This document shows, one piece after another, positions 36,303 to 45,546 of a DNA stretch of 64,000 nt. Origin of the DNA: Stenotrophomonas cyclobalanopsidis (GTDB taxonomy: Bacteria; Pseudomonadota; Gammaproteobacteria; Xanthomonadales; Xanthomonadaceae); NCBI RefSeq assembly GCF_008710035.1, contig NZ_VYKI01000007.1, positions 111,019 to 175,018 on the forward strand, given 5' to 3'. Made by a program: the position numbers and the translations under genes. A model generated the notes under the pieces. It ran no database searches. It was not told the origin of the DNA and saw nothing but the letters and a program-made list of their open reading frames with translations. How positions within the stretch are numbered: position 1 is the stretch's first letter; every line of letters starts with the position of its first letter.

Positions 36303-36887
36303 ATGGCGCGTGGCATCAACAAAGTCATCCTGGTCGGCAACCTCGGCAACGACCCGGACGTGAAGTACACCCAGGGCGGCATGGCGATCACCCGCATCAG
36401 CCTGGCCACCACCAGCGTCCGCAAGGACAAGGACGGCAACCAGCAGGAGCGCACCGAGTGGCACCGCGTGGTGTTCTTCGGCAAGCTCGGCGAAATCGCC
36501 GGCGAATACCTGCGCAAGGGCAGCTCGGTCTACGTCGAAGGCAGCCTGCGCTACGACAAGTACACCGGCCAGGATGGCGTGGAGAAGTACTCCACCGACA
36601 TCATCGCCGACGAAATGCAGATGCTGGGCGGCCGCGGTGAAGGAGGCGGTGGCGGCGGTGGTGGCAACTTCGGCGGCGACCGTCCGCAGCGCCAGCAGGC
36701 CCCGCGCCAGGAATACGGCGGCGGTGGCGGCCAGCGTGGCGGCCAGGGTGGTGGTTACGGCAACCAGGGCGGTGGCCAGGGCGGCTACGGCAACCAGGGC
36801 GGCGGCAACCAGGGTGGCAACCAGCGCCCGCAGCCGCAGCAGGCACCGCCGATGGACGACTTCGCTGACGACGATATTCCGTTCTAG
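36303..36887 (+). CDS. ssb: Single-stranded DNA-binding protein
   Basis: A 194-residue SSB that coats single-stranded DNA in replication and repair. The OB-fold covers residues 1-110 ([22 protein letters not shown]... [18 protein letters not shown]). A long Gly/Gln-rich linker with YGNQGGG repeats follows, then the acidic tip DFADDDIPF that binds partner proteins. The gene ends at a strong terminator and is the last chromosomal gene before the accessory island. Confidence 0.97.
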
Positions 36888-36921
36888 GAAATACCTAAGT
36901 AATAAAGGTTGAAATAGACCG

Positions 36922-36959
36922 AGGAGGAGCCCTATCCATGGGGCTCCTCCTTTTTTTTT
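36922..36959 (+). terminator. Rho-independent terminator of ssb
   Basis: The stem AGGAGGAGCCC/GGGCTCCTCCT (seven- to eight-base loop) is followed by a run of nine T. Confidence 0.92.
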
Positions 36960-37002
36960 ACCTTCTCGACCCGGTAAGAAAAATGGGTATAGTCATGCAT
37001 AC

Positions 37003-37667
37003 GTGAAATCAGGCGAGCAAGGGACGATGCCCAAGCTGTCGGTCCATGTAATGCAAAGCGGTGAGCGCGTTCCAATGCTCCAAGACGAGCTGGGGCTGCC
37101 GCTGTTCTATCCCACGTTGTTCGCGACCTCCCAGCTACGAAATGCTGCGGTCGCAGTGAACACCATACGCAACAAGCTTGCCGATCTCATCGTGTTGCTC
37201 CGTTGGCAGGCTGCGAGTCGTCGGGATCTGGTTTCGGAGTTCCGGGCCGGGCGCTTTCTGACCATCGCGGATGTAGTTTCGCTGCGGGACTTCGCCAAGC
37301 TTGATATGCGGAACTGGAAGCTCGATGAACCGGGCATGGAAAGGCCAAGCGGTCGAGTCCTGGAATTTCTGGAGGCAAGGCTTGCTCCGAGCCGAGCGCA
37401 AGCCGCAATTGGCCCACAGCAGCATTTCAATCGTCTAACTACGTTTGCCGACTACCTGGAGTTCACGGCTAACGTTATTACGCAGTGCGAGGGATCCCCT
37501 CAATTCGGGCAAGAAATTGCACGGAAGGCCCCTTCCTGCATTGGACCGCGCATCGCGCCCGCGCGCAGTCGACAGACCAAAGTAGGAACTTGCCGATAGA
37601 CGACATATGGCACCCATCACGCGGTTGGAGAGACGGTCCAAACTTCGAATTTTCAACTCCTCAATGA
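37003..37667 (+). pseudogene. Remnant of a tyrosine-recombinase-type integrase (N-terminal part)
   Basis: The first 190 residues or so read like the SAM-like N-terminal domain of island integrases (LGLPLFYPTLFATSQLRNAAV, then VNTIRNKLADLIVLLRW and HFNRLTTFADYLEFTA). The frame ends early at 37599. A neighbouring frame continues with RARAQSTDQSRNLPIDDIW, so a frameshift at about 37500-37560 is likely, and similarity then stops. No catalytic domain (Arg...His-X-X-Arg...Tyr) is present. The GTG at 37003 or ATG at 37027 would be the start. It marks the left side of the island. Confidence 0.65.
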
Positions 37668-37724
37668 CATGGGGAGGGGCGCGTCTGCAATTTCCCGGAT
37701 GGGTTTCATCGCCGGGCTTGTCGC

Positions 37725-38170
37725 TTACCAGCACTCCTCGGCACTCCAAGGAGAAAAGTCTTGCCTGGCGGCTTCCAGTACGAGATCTGGATCCAAAGCG
37801 AGTACCGCTGATGGCGTTCCCCCAGACAGACGAGCATGTGGCGCGATCAGCCATTCGATTTCCTGCCAACCGGATGTGATTTTTCCATCTGAGATGCCAT
37901 ATGGACCTCGTAGAAGCGTCAGCAGCTCTGAGAGGCCTCTCAAGGCGTCCCGGTTGGGGCGAGCTGCCACTTGGGGAAGAGATAGAGCTTCCGTTCTGCG
38001 ATCCAGACCCCAAGCACGCTTCCAGATTGCAGGCACTGCATCAGCGTCCAGTTCCGGCGGGTGTCCGGGCTTAGCAGAGCTTCGAACGTTGCTGCATCGA
38101 GCCAGCCCGCCGCAGCATCTGCCCTGGCTTGAGCAGATGCGGTCGTTTCCACTGGTAAGTCCTTGCACAT
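37725..38170 (-). pseudogene. Frameshifted gene resembling MbcA/ParS-type antitoxin proteins
   Basis: Two overlapping frames make one protein. The first reads MCKDLPVETTASAQARADA, then GWLDAATFEALLSPDTRRNW and AERKLYLFPKWQLAP. After a single missing base in a run of C near 37955-37965, the second continues with NRDALRGLSELLTLLRGPYG, then LSGGTPSAVLALDPDLVLEA and AARQDFS to the stop. The C-terminal GGTPSAVLALDPDLVLEAAR resembles the toxin-binding segment of MbcA/ParS antitoxins; I do not see the toxin. Restoring one C would give about 148 residues. Confidence 0.5.
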
Positions 38171-38531
38171 AAGGTGCCTGCTAGCTGAGCTGCTCCCCCT
38201 AAGGATGCCACGGTGTGTCACTCAGGTAACCTGTGGGGGAAATGTCTCCTTCCCTTAGCTAACCCGTGGGGGAAACGTCTCAACTATCAAGCCGGCAGGT
38301 TACTTGGCCAGCCGTGTACGCTTGCGCCTCTAGTAGCGCGGTGCTGAACTGCCGATCGTCGCTACTGAAGGAGCCAGGAGCGCGCAGATGAATCGGAATC
38401 TCCGCGGCCCTTGGCGCGGCATCCTCCACCTTGGGCGGAAATGAAAATCGAAGTGCATGTTGACCGAGGGAATCAAGCATGCTCGCAAGGTCTCAAGCGT
38501 AGTCCTTGGTCGAATTGGCAGCCATGCTGTC
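38171..38531. other. Non-coding stretch with a 22-bp direct repeat
   Basis: No convincing gene. It holds the direct repeat 38227-38248 / 38260-38281. A 66-codon open frame on the minus strand (38280-38480) has no recognisable features. Confidence 0.5.
38227..38281. repeat. 22-bp direct repeat, 33-bp period
   Basis: TAACC(T/C)GTGGGGGAAA(T/C)GTCTC occurs at 38227-38248 and 38260-38281 with two differences. Spaced repeats of this kind are found at the ends of some insertion sequences as transposase-binding sites, so this may be an IS end left behind. Confidence 0.7.
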
Positions 38532-39320
38532 TCAGGTCTCCAGTAGTCGGTTGGTGTTGGTACGATCTTCCGCAGTAAACGAGGAGCCGTGATAGCGCTC
38601 CATCCAGTTCATCATGGCGGTAATCATGCTATGCGCAATCACGCGAGCTTCGAGCGTGTCGACCGATAGGATTACATTGAAGATCATGCCGGCTTGGAGT
38701 GCTAGCTTTGCGTGCTCTTCCAGTAGGGCGCGCAGCTGCTTGAGTTCCATGTAAGGACCGGCGGTCGCGTCCTTGCCGTTTGGACACAGTAGCTGTAGTC
38801 CTTCAATCGTAGGGTGTGTAGCCAGCTTAGAAAACTTGGAGTAAATAGCGCCGCGCTTACTTGGGCCCTTGCCCATAGCGTCGTCCAATGCTTTTCGTAC
38901 CTTCCATGGCTTGAAGGTATCCTTGCGGGCGCGCTCGTCGCCAATGCGCCACACCTCTACCAGCTCAGGCCTTAGTCGGAAGTACTCCACCAGGCTGACG
39001 GTTTCAATGACATCACGCTGCACCATAGCGGCCGCTTGGAAGTAGCCCGAGGCAATGAGCTTCCAAGCCGCGCCCATGTCACTGAAAACGCGAGCGCCCA
39101 ATTGGAGGACGGCACGCTCGTCGTCGGTGGTATTGGGGCCGTGATGCATCGTGTAGTGCAGCAAGTCCATGGCCCTCTCAGTGACCGCCACGTGGTCTTT
39201 CAGATCGGCATGCTCGGCGATCCAGCGCAGCGCAATCTGGCGGAGCTGCTCTTCTTGAGCATGAAGCCCTAGGAGGTTGACGGGTAAGCTCATGCTGGGC
39301 GTTTCCTTTGTCAATGCCAA
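38532..39320 (-). CDS. Hypothetical helical protein (possibly DUF5677-like)
   Basis: A 262-residue, mostly helical soluble protein. The segment GYFQAAAMVQRDVIETVSLVEYF and the later KFSKLATHPTIEGLQLL remind me of DUF5677-type proteins, but I cannot name the family with confidence. The start may be MALTKETPS (39320) or MSLPVNLLGL (39293). Lower GC and less biased third positions than the core genes mark it as imported. It is in the same direction as the HEPN-like gene, with a 24-bp gap, so the two may form one operon. Confidence 0.6.
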   Translation of the reverse strand: MALTKETPSMSLPVNLLGLHAQEEQLRQIALRWIAEHADLKDHVAVTERAMDLLHYTMHHGPNTTDDERAVLQLGARVFSDMGAAWKLIASGYFQAAAMVQRDVIETVSLVEYFRLRPELVEVWRIGDERARKDTFKPWKVRKALDDAMGKGPSKRGAIYSKFSKLATHPTIEGLQLLCPNGKDATAGPYMELKQLRALLEEHAKLALQAGMIFNVILSVDTLEARVIAHSMITAMMNWMERYHGSSFTAEDRTNTNRLLET

Positions 39321-39344
39321 TGGGGCGGGTGCGGCAACATCTTT

Positions 39345-39842
39345 CTATGGTCGGAGCCGCTGGAGTTCCAGCAGCTCCAGCAGCAGGGCAGCAACTTCCT
39401 CCGCGGCAATAACCCATTCCTCGTCGTCGCCCTGATGGGGCTCTTGCAACGGGTCCTCCTTGCCGCCGTGGAAAAGGTTGTTGCGCACCCGCCGCATAGC
39501 GACTACCAGGGCTTCGGCGTCGTTGTGCGGCAGGTTGCTGTCCTCGTAGTTAGCGGTCAACGAGCCATCGGCGGCCACCCGCACGAATTGAATCTGGGGC
39601 CGGTTTCGAGTACCACCTAGTAGCTTGGCCCGTGCTGGTTTGGATACTTGGTCGAGGAAGTCCGCTGGATGTAGCGCGGCCACCGCGCGATCAAAGTTCG
39701 GCCAATCCACCTTCGCCTTCGCCCGCTGGTTTCTCCGTGGATTGCGATCAGCAGCTAGGAAGCCCGGGATGCGCTTAAGGCTGAATTCCAGCATCCCGAA
39801 GGCGCGGAGCAAGGCGAAGGCACTGGCGTCAGAGGCAGGCAT
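39345..39842 (-). CDS. HEPN-like protein (RX4H motif)
   Basis: A 165-residue protein starting MPASDASAFALLRAFGMLEF; an in-frame ATG at 39926 would add 28 residues. Residues 117-127 read RRVRNNLFHGG, with R120 and H125 in the RX4-6H pattern that forms the RNase centre of HEPN domains, and the flanking helices fit the fold. HEPN proteins act as toxins, in abortive-infection systems, or as non-catalytic partners. No MNT or other cognate antitoxin is visible. Confidence 0.62.
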   Translation of the reverse strand: MPASDASAFALLRAFGMLEFSLKRIPGFLAADRNPRRNQRAKAKVDWPNFDRAVAALHPADFLDQVSKPARAKLLGGTRNRPQIQFVRVAADGSLTANYEDSNLPHNDAEALVVAMRRVRNNLFHGGKEDPLQEPHQGDDEEWVIAAEEVAALLLELLELQRLRP

Positions 39843-40091
39843 GACCGCATTGTAGCCGAGGGCTGGACCGCCAAACCTAGCCGGGAAAGGCTTTCCATTC
39901 AATTGGATACGGGGAGGGCTCGGCATCCGCGCCCTAATTGGCCATAATCGGCCGAGAGCTTAGTGGGCCGTAGTACGTAAGAGACCGGAAAAGGCGCGTA
40001 CGCGCAAGGGGGGGGTTAGGGATGGTTTGGCTTGCCCGCGAGCCCGCTGCTGCCGCGATTCTTCGTGTTTGTACTGATGGAGTAATTCGTC

Positions 40092-40820
40092 ATGTCTGAT
40101 CTTCTCGATGTCAAGGCGCTTCAGTTCTTCTTTGGTCCTCATTTTAACGTTGAAGTCGCAATGCATGCTTTTTCGAATTATGAAAAGGTTGCTTCCCTCG
40201 AGCGCGAATTGCTCGAGTCTGTAGAGCAGGGGGTAGCACATACAGGTATTCAGTTGGTGGGATATCAGGATGTTGATTCGGGACTGTCAACGGCGATGCT
40301 GATGCAGCATCCAGGTGAGATGAGTGGCGCAAGCTTCTTCGCGGAGAGTAGGCATCGATTGTTCGGTGGTAGCACATTGATTTGTGTGCCTTTGGCATTC
40401 TGCTCGTCTCTCTTCTCTCCGCAGGGAGACCATCTGGTTTACCGACACACGTACAAGCGAGCGTCCTTCACTTCGGAGGAGATTGATAGGCTGATGACCA
40501 GCGGCACGGACGAGCAGAGGTTGAAAGCTTTTGTATTCACAAAATGCAGGCTTGGCTACGAGACGATCCCTGGTATGACCTACGTGGGGATGACGCGCCG
40601 ATCTTGGCAGAAGAGGTACTTGGAGCACGTTGAGGATGCACTGAATAGTTCTTCTTCCAGATATCTACATGAGGCTATTCGAAACATGCAGGGCCAGAAG
40701 GTTATCTGTGTGCATGATGTGTCTGGGTATGGAATGACCCAAGATGCTGCAAAGGCTTACGAGTCGAAGCTGATACAGGCGTCTTCTCTGTGGCCGCGCG
40801 GCCTCAACATGAAGGTGTGA
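40092..40820 (+). CDS. Protein with C-terminal GIY-YIG-like nuclease domain
   Basis: A 242-residue protein of two parts. Residues 1-145 match nothing I recognise. Residues 148-242 read like a GIY-YIG nuclease: a TYVGMT strand with Y164, R170, a helix with H179 (RYLEHVEDAL), E224 (AYESKLIQA) and N239. The short GMTYVGMT replaces the canonical GIY...YIG spacing, as in reduced members. There is no ribosome site of note. It faces the two leftward genes and probably belongs with the downstream 451-residue protein gene, 274 bp away. Confidence 0.6.
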   Translation: MSDLLDVKALQFFFGPHFNVEVAMHAFSNYEKVASLERELLESVEQGVAHTGIQLVGYQDVDSGLSTAMLMQHPGEMSGASFFAESRHRLFGGSTLICVPLAFCSSLFSPQGDHLVYRHTYKRASFTSEEIDRLMTSGTDEQRLKAFVFTKCRLGYETIPGMTYVGMTRRSWQKRYLEHVEDALNSSSSRYLHEAIRNMQGQKVICVHDVSGYGMTQDAAKAYESKLIQASSLWPRGLNMKV

Positions 40821-41094
40821 CTGGTGCCACCCTTTCTTTAGGCTGCCGAACGCCTAGTCGGCAACGATATCCTGCTCCCCGATGGCGTTGGTTCTGTCTG
40901 GCTTCGCGTAGGGCGGTTCCAATCATGATGACCAGAGGGCTGCCAGTTGACGCCAGAGTGTTCGGTGATTGATATGGATGGGGGCTGACACAGCTAGCAT
41001 CAAGAAGGTCATTGTGCATGCAGAAGCCAAAGTGCGCCGTAGATTCATATGACATGAAAGAGTACTCCACCGCTGCTAAGCGTTGCCCACCGTA

Positions 41095-42450
41095 ATGACT
41101 CAATTCGTCTTCTCACGTCGTGATTTGCAGATAAGAATCAAACGCCTGCAGGGCGTTCTTTCTAACGAACAGCTTTGCGGAATAGTCAAGAAGCTCAATA
41201 CACCCAACGAGCAGCGCTTCCCCACGATGTGGGAGCTTGTTGTCCTGGATGCGTTTGCGCAGGTAGCCTCGGTTCGTCATGAGGCTCCTCTTCCCTCGGG
41301 GAAGTGCCCTGATCTTCTCGTTAATTACCAATCGGCGGCGGGAGAAGGGCTTGTGGTAGTCGGCGACATCCTTGCCGTTTCGGACAGGGGCTTGGACGAA
41401 AGGAACCCGGTCGACGTGCTTTTTGAGCAAACTCCCGTCTTGGCGAGAAAGCATGGTGTTGATCCTGTGAAGCTCGCTTACAGGATCAATGGCGGGCGAA
41501 CGGGTAAGCGAGGCCAGGTCAAAGTCCAGCTGGCCCTTCCGATCAGAGGCCAAATGATTTCGCTGTTGCATCGTGAGGTCGTCCCTTGGCTCAAAGCGAT
41601 CAACTTGAAGCCGCACGAGCACGACGTATTCAAGCCATCCGACAAGAATTTCGATTTTTCAATCACTTACGATCCCGCTCAAACGACCACCATGGGAAGC
41701 TACACCAGTTACGATGTGGCGCCTTCAAAGGAGGTCAATCCGCTCTACAAAGCGCTCAAAGCGAAGACTGGCCAGCTAGAAGGCGTTCAAGAGGGAGCAT
41801 TCAAACTCTTGGTGGCATGCGATGGTGATTGCGGTCTGTTTCGCAGTAATGTTTCGATGACATCGATCGGCGGTACCTTTACCGACCGACAGGTCGTCGA
41901 CCATTTCTTGACCAAGCATTCAAGCATTGACGGCGTGCTTCTCATTGGCGTTGAGGAAAAGCGCGACTTCGTCTCCGCCCAGACGGATAGAAAGCTACGC
42001 TTTGACCTCAGGGTACGTGGCTCTATCGATCCCGCACACCTCACATCTCCCCACGCGGAGCTCGATGAACTGATTAAGCGTGCCTTGATTCATTTTCCCA
42101 AGCCGCAGCTGGCACCTTACAACGCGTCTCGTCGCTGCCTAGATCAAGAGACCAGTGAAAGACCCCAAGTCCGATATCGATTTACAACCGGAGGAGTAGG
42201 TGGTATGAGCGTTAGCATTTCTTCTCGGGACCTGATGCAGCTGCTATCTGGAAACTTGTCACAGGAGGACTTCTGCAAGGCGTATCGGTTCGATGCCCAA
42301 CAGGTCAATCCCTTTGCGCTGGCCCTCTCTCAGGGTCGCTTGATCCAAGGTGCCTCATTGAGCAGGTTGGATGGCGATGACGATCTGGTGACCTTCGAAT
42401 TTGGCGAGATTGATCCGGCCATCGCGCCGTTCTTCATGCCTATGGATTAG
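41095..42450 (+). CDS. Unassigned 451-residue island protein
   Basis: I do not recognise this protein. The N-terminal part has FPTMWELVVLDAFAQVA (residues 43-59) followed by LPSGKCPDLLVNY and then LVVVGDILAVSDRGLDERNP. This E...PD...(D)XX layout resembles a PD-(D/E)XK nuclease core, although the expected lysine is not obvious. A Lys/Arg-rich middle, a mixed 230-330 region and a C-terminal domain after about residue 365 (RYRFTTGGVGGMSVSISSRD) follow. It starts at the ATG at 41095; a TTG four codons earlier is possible. There are no membrane segments. Confidence 0.6.
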   Translation: MTQFVFSRRDLQIRIKRLQGVLSNEQLCGIVKKLNTPNEQRFPTMWELVVLDAFAQVASVRHEAPLPSGKCPDLLVNYQSAAGEGLVVVGDILAVSDRGLDERNPVDVLFEQTPVLARKHGVDPVKLAYRINGGRTGKRGQVKVQLALPIRGQMISLLHREVVPWLKAINLKPHEHDVFKPSDKNFDFSITYDPAQTTTMGSYTSYDVAPSKEVNPLYKALKAKTGQLEGVQEGAFKLLVACDGDCGLFRSNVSMTSIGGTFTDRQVVDHFLTKHSSIDGVLLIGVEEKRDFVSAQTDRKLRFDLRVRGSIDPAHLTSPHAELDELIKRALIHFPKPQLAPYNASRRCLDQETSERPQVRYRFTTGGVGGMSVSISSRDLMQLLSGNLSQEDFCKAYRFDAQQVNPFALALSQGRLIQGASLSRLDGDDDLVTFEFGEIDPAIAPFFMPMD

Positions 42451-42752
42451 CCCCCCCTGTGCAATGTGCGCCGTGCACCACGGGTTGTGACTGGTTAGCG
42501 ATCTGGTGAGTGGCAGCTATAGACAGCGGACGTGTCACTGGGGTGATCCACTGATTTGGTCCAATTGGTTGAAAAAGATCAGTTGACTGTTCCTTCAGGT
42601 CATTGATTTAATTGGGTTTGCGGCCAAATGCAATTTTGATTTAAGTACCTCAGGTGTACACAACCGTTCTGACGCGCGCCTGGCATCAGCCAGCAGAAAA
42701 CCCCGGCAAGGCCCTGCGCCTGCCGGGGTTTTTTATGAGCATTGTGCTGGGA
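42451..42752. other. AT-rich right flank of the island
   Basis: No gene. The sequence is clearly AT-richer up to about 42650 and then returns to core composition, so the island boundary is probably near 42640-42670. A strong bidirectional terminator follows. I could not find a direct repeat matching the left flank after ssb. Confidence 0.5.
42697..42734. terminator. Bidirectional rho-independent terminator
   Basis: CCCCGGCA/TGCCGGGG forms an 8-bp stem, flanked by AAAA on the left and TTTTTT on the right, so it can stop transcription from the island and from the leftward SDR gene. Confidence 0.85.
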
Positions 42753-43502
42753 TCACCCAGCCGCGCTCATCCACTCCACCGCGTCATCGCCCCCGGGACT
42801 ACGCATCGGCGCGTTCTCGTCGGTCGCCGCGCGCCACACTGCTTCTGCCACGGCCTCCGGCGTGGTCACCGGGCCGCTGCTGTCGCGGAAGCCGGCCAGC
42901 ACGCCCTGCAGCAGCGGCCCATAGGCCGGGTGCTCCATGCCGCCCAGATGCGGGAACGCGTTCTCGCCGAACCGCGTGGTCGGCGAGCGCCCGGGCAGTA
43001 CCAGGCGCACGCGCACGCCCAGCGGTGCGACTTCGATGGCCAATGATTCGGTGAAAGCATTCACCGCCGCCTTGCTGGCGCTGTAGACGCCCACCAGCGG
43101 CAGCGCCTTCACTGTCACCGTGGAGGTCACGTTGACGATCACGCCGTCGCCGCGCTCGCGCATCTGCGGCAGCACGGCCTGGGTCATCGCCAGCGTGCCC
43201 AGCGTGTTGGTGTCGAACAGGGCGCGGGCGGTTTCCATCGGGGTCAGTTCCACCGGCACCGGTGCGCCGAACCCCGCATTGTTGACCAGCACGTCGATCG
43301 GGCCGGCCTCGGCGATGGCCCGCGCGATGCTGGCCGGGTCGGTGATGTCCAGGGCGAGCACGCGCAGGTGCGCGGACACGGGCAGCAGATCGGCGCGCGG
43401 TGTGCGCATGGTGGCGATGACCTTCCAGCCACGGTCGAGGAACAGGCGGGCGGTTTCCAGCCCGAAGCCGGAGGAACAGCCAGTGATCAGTACGGTTTGC
43501 AT
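42753..43502 (-). CDS. Short-chain dehydrogenase/reductase (SDR)
   Basis: A 249-residue classical SDR that oxidises or reduces an alcohol/ketone with NAD(P). The cofactor loop TGCSSGFG is at residues 7-14 and NNAG at 74-77. The catalytic residues are S127, Y140 and K144 (YSASK). The substrate is unknown. It diverges from an AraC-family regulator by a 61-bp gap, and such pairs are usually regulator-target. Confidence 0.92.
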   Translation of the reverse strand: MQTVLITGCSSGFGLETARLFLDRGWKVIATMRTPRADLLPVSAHLRVLALDITDPASIARAIAEAGPIDVLVNNAGFGAPVPVELTPMETARALFDTNTLGTLAMTQAVLPQMRERGDGVIVNVTSTVTVKALPLVGVYSASKAAVNAFTESLAIEVAPLGVRVRLVLPGRSPTTRFGENAFPHLGGMEHPAYGPLLQGVLAGFRDSSGPVTTPEAVAEAVWRAATDENAPMRSPGGDDAVEWMSAAG

Positions 43503-43563
43503 CGTGTACGCCTTCAGCAGGAACGAGTGACCATGGTCGGCCCCGCTGGATGGACGCGCTACA

Positions 43564-44496
43564 ATGAAACGTCCATATTTCCTCGTCGAGCGTCCAGTGT
43601 CATCCGATCCGCTGTCCGACGTCGTGGCCCTGCTGCAGCCCACGGCACGCTTCTCCAAGCGCGTCGAGGCCGCTGGCGAGTGGTGTGTGCGGCGCGAAGG
43701 CGAAGGCGAGCCGTTCTACATGGCGGTGCTGCACGGGCAATGCCGGCTGTCGGTGGAGGGGGGCGCGCCGATCACCCTGCAGGCCGGCGATTTCGTGCTG
43801 GTGCCAGCCCTGCACGAGCTGGTCAATACCAGCATGCAGGCGCCGGCGGACATCACGCCGAGCCTGCCGGTGCGTATCGCCGAAGGCCACTTCCGGGTAG
43901 GCAGCCTCGATGGACCCGTGGCGCTGTGCGCGCAGATCGGACACTGCGGATTCGCTTCGCCCGATGCGGCCCTGCTGGTGTCGTTGCTGCCGCGGCTGCT
44001 GCATGTACGCGGTGAGCCGCGCCTGGCCACGTTGGTGCAGATGGTGGGTGAGGAAGCGCGTGCGCAGCGACCGGCGCGTGATGTCGTGTTGGAACGCCTG
44101 CTGGAAGTGCTGCTGATCGAGGCGCTGCGCAGCGGCATGGACAGCGTGGGGGGCAGTGGGCTGGTCCGCGGGCTGGGCGATGAGCGGCTCGCTGGCGCAT
44201 TGCGTGCCCTGCATGCGCGCCCACAGCACGCGTGGACGGTGGAGGCGCTGGCAGGGCAGGCGACGATGTCGCGCTCGGGTTTCGCCGCGCGTTTCATGCA
44301 GGTGGTGGGTGTGGCTCCCATGGAATACCTGCTGCACTGGCGCATGGCACTGGCCAAGCGCCTGCTCAACGATCGCTCGCTGAGCCTGGAACAGGTCGCC
44401 GAGCGGGTCGGCTATGCCAGCGCGGTCACCTTCGGTGCGGCGTTCGCGCGGTTGGTGGGCATGCCACCGGCGCGTTTCGCGCGCATGCGTGGTTGA
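43564..44496 (+). CDS. AraC-family transcriptional regulator
   Basis: A 310-residue activator with an N-terminal cupin-like sensor domain (FYMAVLHGQCRLSVEGGAPITLQAGDFVLVP at about 50-80) and two C-terminal helix-turn-helix motifs (WTVEALAGQATMSRSGFAARF and LSLEQVAERVGYASAVTFGAAFARLVGMPPARF). The arrangement matches the AraC family with a Cupin_6-type sensor. It probably controls the divergent SDR gene (inference). A GTG at 43600 (VSSDPLSD) is an alternative start. Confidence 0.9.
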   Translation: MKRPYFLVERPVSSDPLSDVVALLQPTARFSKRVEAAGEWCVRREGEGEPFYMAVLHGQCRLSVEGGAPITLQAGDFVLVPALHELVNTSMQAPADITPSLPVRIAEGHFRVGSLDGPVALCAQIGHCGFASPDAALLVSLLPRLLHVRGEPRLATLVQMVGEEARAQRPARDVVLERLLEVLLIEALRSGMDSVGGSGLVRGLGDERLAGALRALHARPQHAWTVEALAGQATMSRSGFAARFMQVVGVAPMEYLLHWRMALAKRLLNDRSLSLEQVAERVGYASAVTFGAAFARLVGMPPARFARMRG

Positions 44497-44643: not shown

Positions 44644-45546
44644 ATGTCGATCCATTCCATCGAACCGGCACCGGCACCGGTGCCGGGGCTCACGCGGCGC
44701 GAGGCGCTGCGCATGGCGCTCACCGGCAGCCTGGGCCTGGCGGCCGCAGGCATCCTGCCCGCCTTTGCCGCTGCCGCGCCCCTGAAGGGCCGGCTGAAGC
44801 ATTCCGTCGCCCGCTGGACCTTCCCGCAGTTGTCGGTGGCCCAGCTCTGCCAGACCGTGAAGGGCCTCGGCTTTGCCGCCATCGACCTGGTCGGCCCGGA
44901 GGACTGGCCGACGCTGAAGGCCCATGGCGTAGACAGCTCGATGTGCAACGGCGCGGAACTGAGCCTGACCAAGGGCTTCGCCGGCAGCGAGTTCCACGAT
45001 GAACTGGTGGCGCGTTACACGCGGCACATCGACCTGGTGGCCGACGCCGGCTATCGCAATCTCATCTGCTTCTCCGGCAACCGCAACGGCATGGACCCGC
45101 AGCAGGGCATGGCCAATGCCGAAGCCGGGCTCAAGCGCATCCTCGGCCATGCCGAGAAGCGCGGCGTGGTGCTGGTGATGGAGCTGCTGAACTCCCGCGT
45201 CGATCACGCCGACTATCTGTGCGACCACTCGGCCTGGGGCGTGGAACTGTGCAAGCGGCTCGGCTCGGACAACTTCGGCCTGCTCTACGACATCTACCAC
45301 ATGCAGATCATGGAGGGCGACATCATCGCCACCATCGGTCGGCACCATGCGTACTTCAAGCATTACCACACCGCAGGCGTGCCTGGCCGGCACGAGATCG
45401 GGGACCAGCAGGAACTGAACTATCCGGCCATCTGTCGCGCGATCCGCGACACCGGTTTTGATGGGTATCTGGCGCAGGAATTCATGCCTGCAGCGCCCGA
45501 TCCCGTTGGCTCATTGCGCGAGGCGATCCGTCTCTGCGACGTCTGA
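44644..45546 (+). CDS. Exported sugar isomerase-like (hydroxypyruvate isomerase family) TIM-barrel protein
   Basis: A 300-residue TIM-barrel protein of the xylose-isomerase-like/hydroxypyruvate isomerase family. The N-terminal TRREALRMALTGSLGLAAAG is a Tat signal with the twin arginine, so it is exported folded. Metal-site stretches are VLVMELLNSRVDH, LLYDIYHMQIMEGD and GYLAQEFMPA. It is the first gene of the rightward operon, after a GGGAGG ribosome site. The real substrate is probably a sugar intermediate of the 3-keto pathway (inference). Confidence 0.85.
   Translation: MSIHSIEPAPAPVPGLTRREALRMALTGSLGLAAAGILPAFAAAAPLKGRLKHSVARWTFPQLSVAQLCQTVKGLGFAAIDLVGPEDWPTLKAHGVDSSMCNGAELSLTKGFAGSEFHDELVARYTRHIDLVADAGYRNLICFSGNRNGMDPQQGMANAEAGLKRILGHAEKRGVVLVMELLNSRVDHADYLCDHSAWGVELCKRLGSDNFGLLYDIYHMQIMEGDIIATIGRHHAYFKHYHTAGVPGRHEIGDQQELNYPAICRAIRDTGFDGYLAQEFMPAAPDPVGSLREAIRLCDV

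Follow-up and report, generated by a model that had tools for sequence, protein, structure and literature searches.

The remnant of a GInt-type island at the 3′ end of ssb in Stenotrophomonas cyclobalanopsidis and its probable anti-phage cargo

What occupies the space behind ssb in Stenotrophomonas cyclobalanopsidis, how did it come to lie there, and what do its genes do? The stretch of contig NZ_VYKI01000007.1 analyzed here (64,000 nucleotides, hereafter the window) contains next to ssb a run of genes which an earlier reading, made from the letters alone, had taken for an accessory island with several nuclease-like genes. The open reading frames (ORFs) are present as this sequence-only reading described them, and the island itself is upheld, now explained as a decayed genomic island with three integrases (GInt) at the 3′ end of ssb. 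We consider it likely that positions 36886–42670 are the remnant of a GInt-type island inserted at the exact 3′ end of ssb and that its cargo acts against phages, foremost through a putative nuclease of the GIY-YIG type, which would cleave DNA entering the cell.

The ends of the element can be given to the base. The heptamer CCGTTCT, with which ssb ends, recurs at the right end of the island (Table 1), and excision in silico of the DNA in between yields the sequence of another genome, G065 (locus L078), with 138 of 140 bases identical over the joint. Because excision restores this empty site, the element is taken to comprise 5,785 bp, close to the limits of 36990 and 42670 originally proposed. 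The reported drop in base composition is equally evident: the G+C content of 36886–42668 is 55.5%, as against a mean of 67.9% (standard deviation 0.9, minimum 66.4%) for 95 stretches of equal length elsewhere in the window, and thus lies outside the range of all of them; the last 150 bp before the right repeat have 44% G+C, compared with 55% in the whole element. An accompanying claim, the lack of repetitive extragenic palindromes in the island, is correct in that none of the 18 in the window lies inside the element, but it carries little weight since the length of the element alone predicts only about 1.6, and the count is based on one simple motif taken to represent them. As read from the sequence, the inserted element gives ssb a new stop codon and a terminator-like hairpin, at a position where relatives have other terminators.

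How often has this site been used? Among 91 genomes of the genus, 88 have a match to ssb, and the DNA behind it was examined in 81 of the 87 other than our own (mostly 12 kb in 80 genomes, 18 kb in G033), six being left out (G012, G013, G020, G039, G054, and G057). Within the genus, the gene set at the ssb–SDR junction lacks conserved synteny; the pattern that would have refuted the sequence-only reading was not seen. The next conserved gene, a homologue of window positions 44644–45546 which we take from its sequence to be an isomerase gene, follows ssb after 203–239 bp in 26 of the 81 loci and after 0.39–9.1 kb in 28, and is missing from the stretch in 27 (two of them short). The right end of the element, CACAACCGTTCT, precedes a displaced ssb end at four other loci (L019, L051, L054, and L059), the rejoined flanks of which align to empty-site relatives at 89–96% (best two matches each); the pattern used in the repeat search was met a single time in 527,444 control bases. 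Against a uniform history of the site stands the absence of this repeat from 24 of the 28 filled loci with an isomerase gene, and the ssb site therefore changes by other routes too. Three extra matches to the pattern, in L069, L086, and L126, occur among the 27 stretches without isomerase gene; unlike the five used, they are not followed by a terminator of that kind. The island's right-hand neighbours, the SDR and AraC genes (window 42753–44496), are rare here, being found in three and two of the 81 stretches, respectively.

Islands of this kind have been described by Bardaji and colleagues as GInts, which are characterized by a ginABCD operon, insertion at a specific site (the ssb end by preference), direct imperfect repeats and a short AT-rich far end (PMC5385486); in another study the element is termed a Tn6571-family transposon (PMC10121019). 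Insertion at the ssb end is seen here from the empty site of L078 and from complete four-gene gin sets, which begin about 212 bases past ssb in 9 of the 81 loci; CCGTTCT provides direct repeats at both ends, and the far end is short and AT-rich. On the Xanthomonas citri plasmid pCuR, the gin module (418, 526, 616, and 150 residues, the first three with integrase-family matches) lies behind the plasmid's own ssb, and in seven further plasmids listed the match to this region (98–100%) stops at base 557, the end of ssb. What the window lacks is a complete operon. The integrase that had been called dead is indeed truncated, corresponding to residues 1–189 of the 465 of the L086 (G019) recombinase (79% identity, window 36958–37524), the gene of which likewise lies behind ssb, and the Pfam domain, at residues 195–337 of the X. 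citri recombinase homologue, lies beyond the part kept. As for ginBCD, the DNA match to L086 (82% identity over 36888–37523) stops at 37523, no dedicated search with pCuR genes 2–4 having been made. Since ginABCD is incomplete, the element should be called the remnant of a GInt rather than a GInt. Its left end is closest to L086 and its right 1.6 kb (41063–42670) to G033 (81% DNA identity), and it is therefore a mosaic.

The following history can be proposed. A GInt, with its three recombinases and a small helper, would have inserted at the end of ssb, bringing a new stop codon and terminator with it; most of ginA and all of ginBCD would have been lost, and the element is probably no longer self-mobile because published GInts require all four gin genes. 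Phage records contain no match to the 451-residue or the 242-residue protein of the island that would point to a prophage origin. Gamma-mobile-trio islands, as far as their published description was available, were considered for the three-recombinase arrangement and set aside without a membership test, the GInt accounting for the evidence. The term "undescribed" in the sequence-only reading does not hold for the mobile platform, which is already known (PMC5385486); the window provides a good case of it, now defined to the base.

What, then, does the platform carry? None of the seven ORFs searched, including that for the 242-residue protein, has a counterpart in Pfam, PADLOC or NCBIfam with an E value of 1 or less, and profile searches of the island proteins matched no housekeeping family. 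The same site in relatives is more informative. Cargo was scanned at 27 loci, namely 19 filled loci of at least 1 kb with the isomerase gene and eight of the nine gin loci (L108, a near copy of L106, being omitted); removal of ORFs below 130 residues, gin genes and window-like ORFs reduced 111 ORFs to 72. These are matched by 246 PADLOC models at E 1e-10, and the matches listed (25 of 246) include Gabija, type I restriction, Lamassu (LmuB) and the candidate family PDC-M05A, whereas 76 control ORFs beyond the isomerase gene at nine related empty loci gave no match at this threshold. Tested singly, seven of ten large cargo proteins match PADLOC models: GajA and GajB are matched over nearly their full length in L069, L082 encodes a type I methylase and specificity subunit and L059 a type I restriction subunit, and the LmuB match covers the whole length in L122 and only the second half in L086. 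The defence genes of L069 and L082 sit behind a gin module, the far ends of those elements lying beyond the stretch examined. At the ssb site of G033 (L019:6692–8478), a GmrSD_N (DUF262) protein and a HEPN_MAE_28990 protein are encoded ahead of a homologue of the 451-residue gene. MADS was not counted as found, its listed models also matching the GajA and methylase proteins.

A defence role for single cargo genes is thus plausible, since the same site bears known defence genes in relatives and the control ORFs contain none. Several points weigh against it. The island cargo of the window is itself matched by no PADLOC model; the control ORFs, taken from nine loci that are related, are not independent; three of the ten large proteins (two from L106, one from L067) have no PADLOC model; and the 72 cargo ORFs also include non-defence genes such as those for an usher, a transporter and LysR regulators (Pfam). 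The large ORFs behind ssb at L106:2301–5016 and L067:2734–5346, without PADLOC match at 1e-10, are possible new defence genes in their own right.

The GIY-YIG-like protein of the sequence-only reading, 242 residues long, is borne out by its predicted structure, in which the C-terminal part (about residues 109–242) adopts a GIY-YIG fold with I-TevI and Slx1 in the list of related folds, and by residues Y117, Y164, R175, E224, and N239, which are invariant in 30 of 30 aligned family sequences. These two tyrosines, arginine, glutamate, and asparagine presumably form the active site, an assignment that uses the residue roles in I-TevI, placed by the ranges in the fold list. The N-terminal domain is predicted to be mixed alpha/beta with four long strands. 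It should be weighed against the proposed role that residues 1–108 have no known fold, that a Foldseek search of the model against the PDB gave no match at E 0.001, GIY-YIG structures included, and that no GIY-YIG, HEPN or nuclease structure was hit when solved structures were searched by sequence. The best match of the family profile in these searches, a weak one to Crov588 (PDB 6nyr; residues 3–53), has an E of 1.4e-5 overall, no single stretch passing.

Where else does this family occur? The gene is present in 2 of 398 genomes of the order, our own included; no phage or plasmid record contains the protein, and a scan of viral contigs with its alignment and with the 262-residue and HEPN-like proteins of the island found none. 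A relative in Geothrix (L010) lies within an integron array, in which one strand bears 26 attC-type repeat ends and the other none, and a GTTRRRY core about 20 bp ahead of the relatives' genes in L011 and L012 is only suggestive. An integron cassette in the window was rejected, as there is no GTTRRRY/RYYYAAC core in 37,440–41,201. Near another relative, L014:11063–14092 encodes a 1009-residue protein that combines a caspase domain with a DEAD helicase domain.

If PD-T4-3/CMoRE and the wH-GIY-YIG enzymes are a guide, the 242-residue enzyme, possibly composed of a sensing N-terminal domain and a GIY-YIG nuclease, probably detects something characteristic of phage DNA, which may be a modified base, and then cleaves the DNA. 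What is new in this case is a GIY-YIG family with an uncharacterized N-terminal domain, missed by the libraries searched, for which we infer a role in defence. We propose more tentatively, with rather less than even confidence, that it founds an unrecognized family of stand-alone restriction nucleases, in which a new modified-DNA-sensing N-terminal domain is joined to a C-terminal GIY-YIG domain, spread among distant bacteria as integron cassettes and GInt cargo and missed by current defence-finding libraries. Could it instead be an enzyme of DNA repair, recombination or homing? I-TevI and Slx1, both non-restriction users of the fold, appear in its fold list; however, the patchy distribution of the family, its place in the Geothrix array and its absence from phage and plasmid records are unlike a housekeeping or phage homing enzyme, and we regard this alternative as unlikely.

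The HEPN-like protein is a second candidate. Its RX4H motif is real: R148 and H153 (RX4–6H) are invariant in 34 sequences, the window protein and 33 of the 111 homologues listed, as is the entire R-N-N-L-x-H core. The HEPN label itself stands as regards the motif but not by comparison with a Pfam-recognized RiboL-PSP-HEPN protein, which was not significant (BLASTP not significant; hhalign probability 0.8%), and the protein has no Pfam match. One homologue (P0131) is labelled a DUF4145 protein by its source, and there is a weak match to phrog_19013 of PHROGs (E 3e-5). The gene occurs in 18 of the 398 genomes of the order, our own included. Directly behind it in the window lies the gene for a helical protein of 262 residues, relatives of which follow a HEPN-type gene both on a Mesorhizobium plasmid (34%) and in G381 (42%), each with room for an intervening gene. 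From motif and gene order, the two genes resemble an operon whose products would cleave RNA or halt growth upon infection; it tells against such a pair that, of the 17 other genomes of the order that have a HEPN-like match, only one has the second gene within 1.5 kb of it.

The proposed frameshifted antitoxin-like gene survives as a remnant, the frameshift not being shown: homologues in L095 and L079 match a single frame with 64–65 residues, and the L095 ORF matches Xre_MbcA_ParS_C below the Pfam cut-off. Relatives of it lie in other ssb-site islands, at L079:7236–8196 beside an ORF for a NIF-like phosphatase and in L120, which also has a weaker NIF-like ORF. Does the cargo then consist of maintenance or toxin–antitoxin genes that secure the persistence of the element and have no direct effect on phages? 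HEPN-type proteins are often toxins, and an antitoxin-like remnant is present in the island. GInts often carry post-segregational killing systems (PMC5385486). Yet the GIY-YIG and 451-residue genes are partnerless and on the opposite strand, and relatives have known defence genes at the same site, so that we hold this explanation to be a little less probable still than that of a repair or homing enzyme.

The 451-residue protein may be a further, diverged nuclease, the word being used weakly, because acetyl-CoA carboxylase reaches the same Z in its fold list as several restriction endonucleases and because the lysine of the PD-(D/E)XK triad is absent (D73 invariant, D91 at least 90%, no lysine at 93 in 27 aligned sequences). 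Its model is middling (pLDDT 80), and Foldseek against the PDB and viral models gave no match at E 0.001. It matches phrog_33687 (E 5e-53), only this and the HEPN-like protein having PHROGs matches below E 0.1 among the island ORFs, and a relative is encoded beside an integrase in viral contig L016. There are 31 homologues listed and five plasmid homologues, and the neighbours of the four plasmid homologues inspected include SIR2, DUF4238, and DUF262 proteins; the gene is present in 7 of 398 genomes of the order (our own included) and in 2 of 91 in the genus. On the alphaproteobacterial plasmids L003 and L018, relatives of the 451-residue and 262-residue proteins, respectively, are encoded next to a cluster for error-prone DNA polymerase, which may be a further insertion site. 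In G274 (L158:6980–14210), homologues of the 451-residue and HEPN-like genes lie 5.4 kb apart, separated by ORFs that we take to be of von Willebrand, phosphatase, and kinase type.

As regards the suggested module for defence or toxicity, a role of individual genes is plausible, whereas one module of four genes is not borne out: that four cargo genes lie within 4 kb and two of them near each other in G274 speaks for a single multi-gene system, but the 451-residue gene follows a GmrSD_N/HEPN pair instead in G033, the loci of GIY-YIG relatives (L007–L015) contain none of the other three genes, and the HEPN-like and 451-residue genes are 266 kb apart in G345, which makes it very improbable.

Table 1. 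Positions in the window of the element, its ends and its genes.
Feature	Position	Strand	Basis
ssb (target gene)	36303..36887	+	ORF; final codons are the left attachment site
attL core, left CCGTTCT copy at the end of ssb	36879..36885	+	
Inserted element, 5,785 bp, 55% G+C	36886..42670	.	Empty site in G065/L078 and composition
Terminator-like hairpin and T run, element-supplied, downstream of ssb	36933..36958	+	Sequence reading
ginA remnant, N-terminal part only	37003..37599	+	Match to L086 recombinase
Antitoxin-like gene remnant	37755..37943	-	45–47% identity to L095 and L079 ORFs
Helical 253/262-residue protein, second gene of putative pair	38532..39293	-	Homologues behind HEPN-type genes
HEPN-like protein with invariant RNNLxH	39345..39839 (longest ORF to 39926)	-	34-sequence alignment
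242-residue protein: N-terminal domain 1–108 and predicted GIY-YIG nuclease domain ~109–242	40092..40820	+	Predicted fold, invariant residues
451-residue protein, phrog_33687, weakly PD-(D/E)XK-like	41095..42450	+	PHROGs, fold list, alignment
AT-rich right end of element, 44% G+C	42512..42661	.	Composition
attR core, right CCGTTCT copy	42664..42670	+	Repeat comparison; CACAACCGTTCT right end common to L019, L051, L054, L059

A vague island has thus become a defined element with exact ends, and the end of ssb emerges as a place in Stenotrophomonas genomes where defence genes integrate often. This gives a simple rule for finding candidate defence genes: inspect the DNA that separates ssb from the conserved gene following it. 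Should the 242-residue family indeed restrict phage DNA, it would add a new candidate for a sensor domain, together with a system of one gene that is carried by integrons and GInts alike and for which Pfam, NCBIfam and PADLOC have no model.

How does all this compare with known systems? The element shares with the published GInts its place at the ssb end, a gin gene on the ssb side, cargo, an AT-rich far end and short direct repeats, but it keeps only the first part of ginA, ginBCD being missing, and its exact repeat is 7 nucleotides long as against imperfect repeats of at least 10–11 nucleotides (PMC5385486). GInts at integration hotspots in E. coli likewise carry defence systems, according to a study the main text of which does not mention ssb (PMC10121019); the word is also absent from papers on S. 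maltophilia defence islands (PMC11680222) and Pseudomonas (PMC12629846). CMoRE/PD-T4-3 has an N-terminal nuclease and a C-terminal sensor (PMC12923530), whereas the nuclease of the 242-residue protein is C-terminal; the GIYxY motif is lacking in its family, which has H119, two residues past Y117, in 30 of 30 sequences, and the protein has no PADLOC match. From the wH-GIY-YIG type IV enzymes Ahi29725I and Apa233I (PMC11037411), it would differ in its N-terminal domain, predicted to be mixed alpha/beta with four long strands; in these enzymes, as proposed for the 242-residue protein, the sensor precedes the GIY-YIG nuclease.

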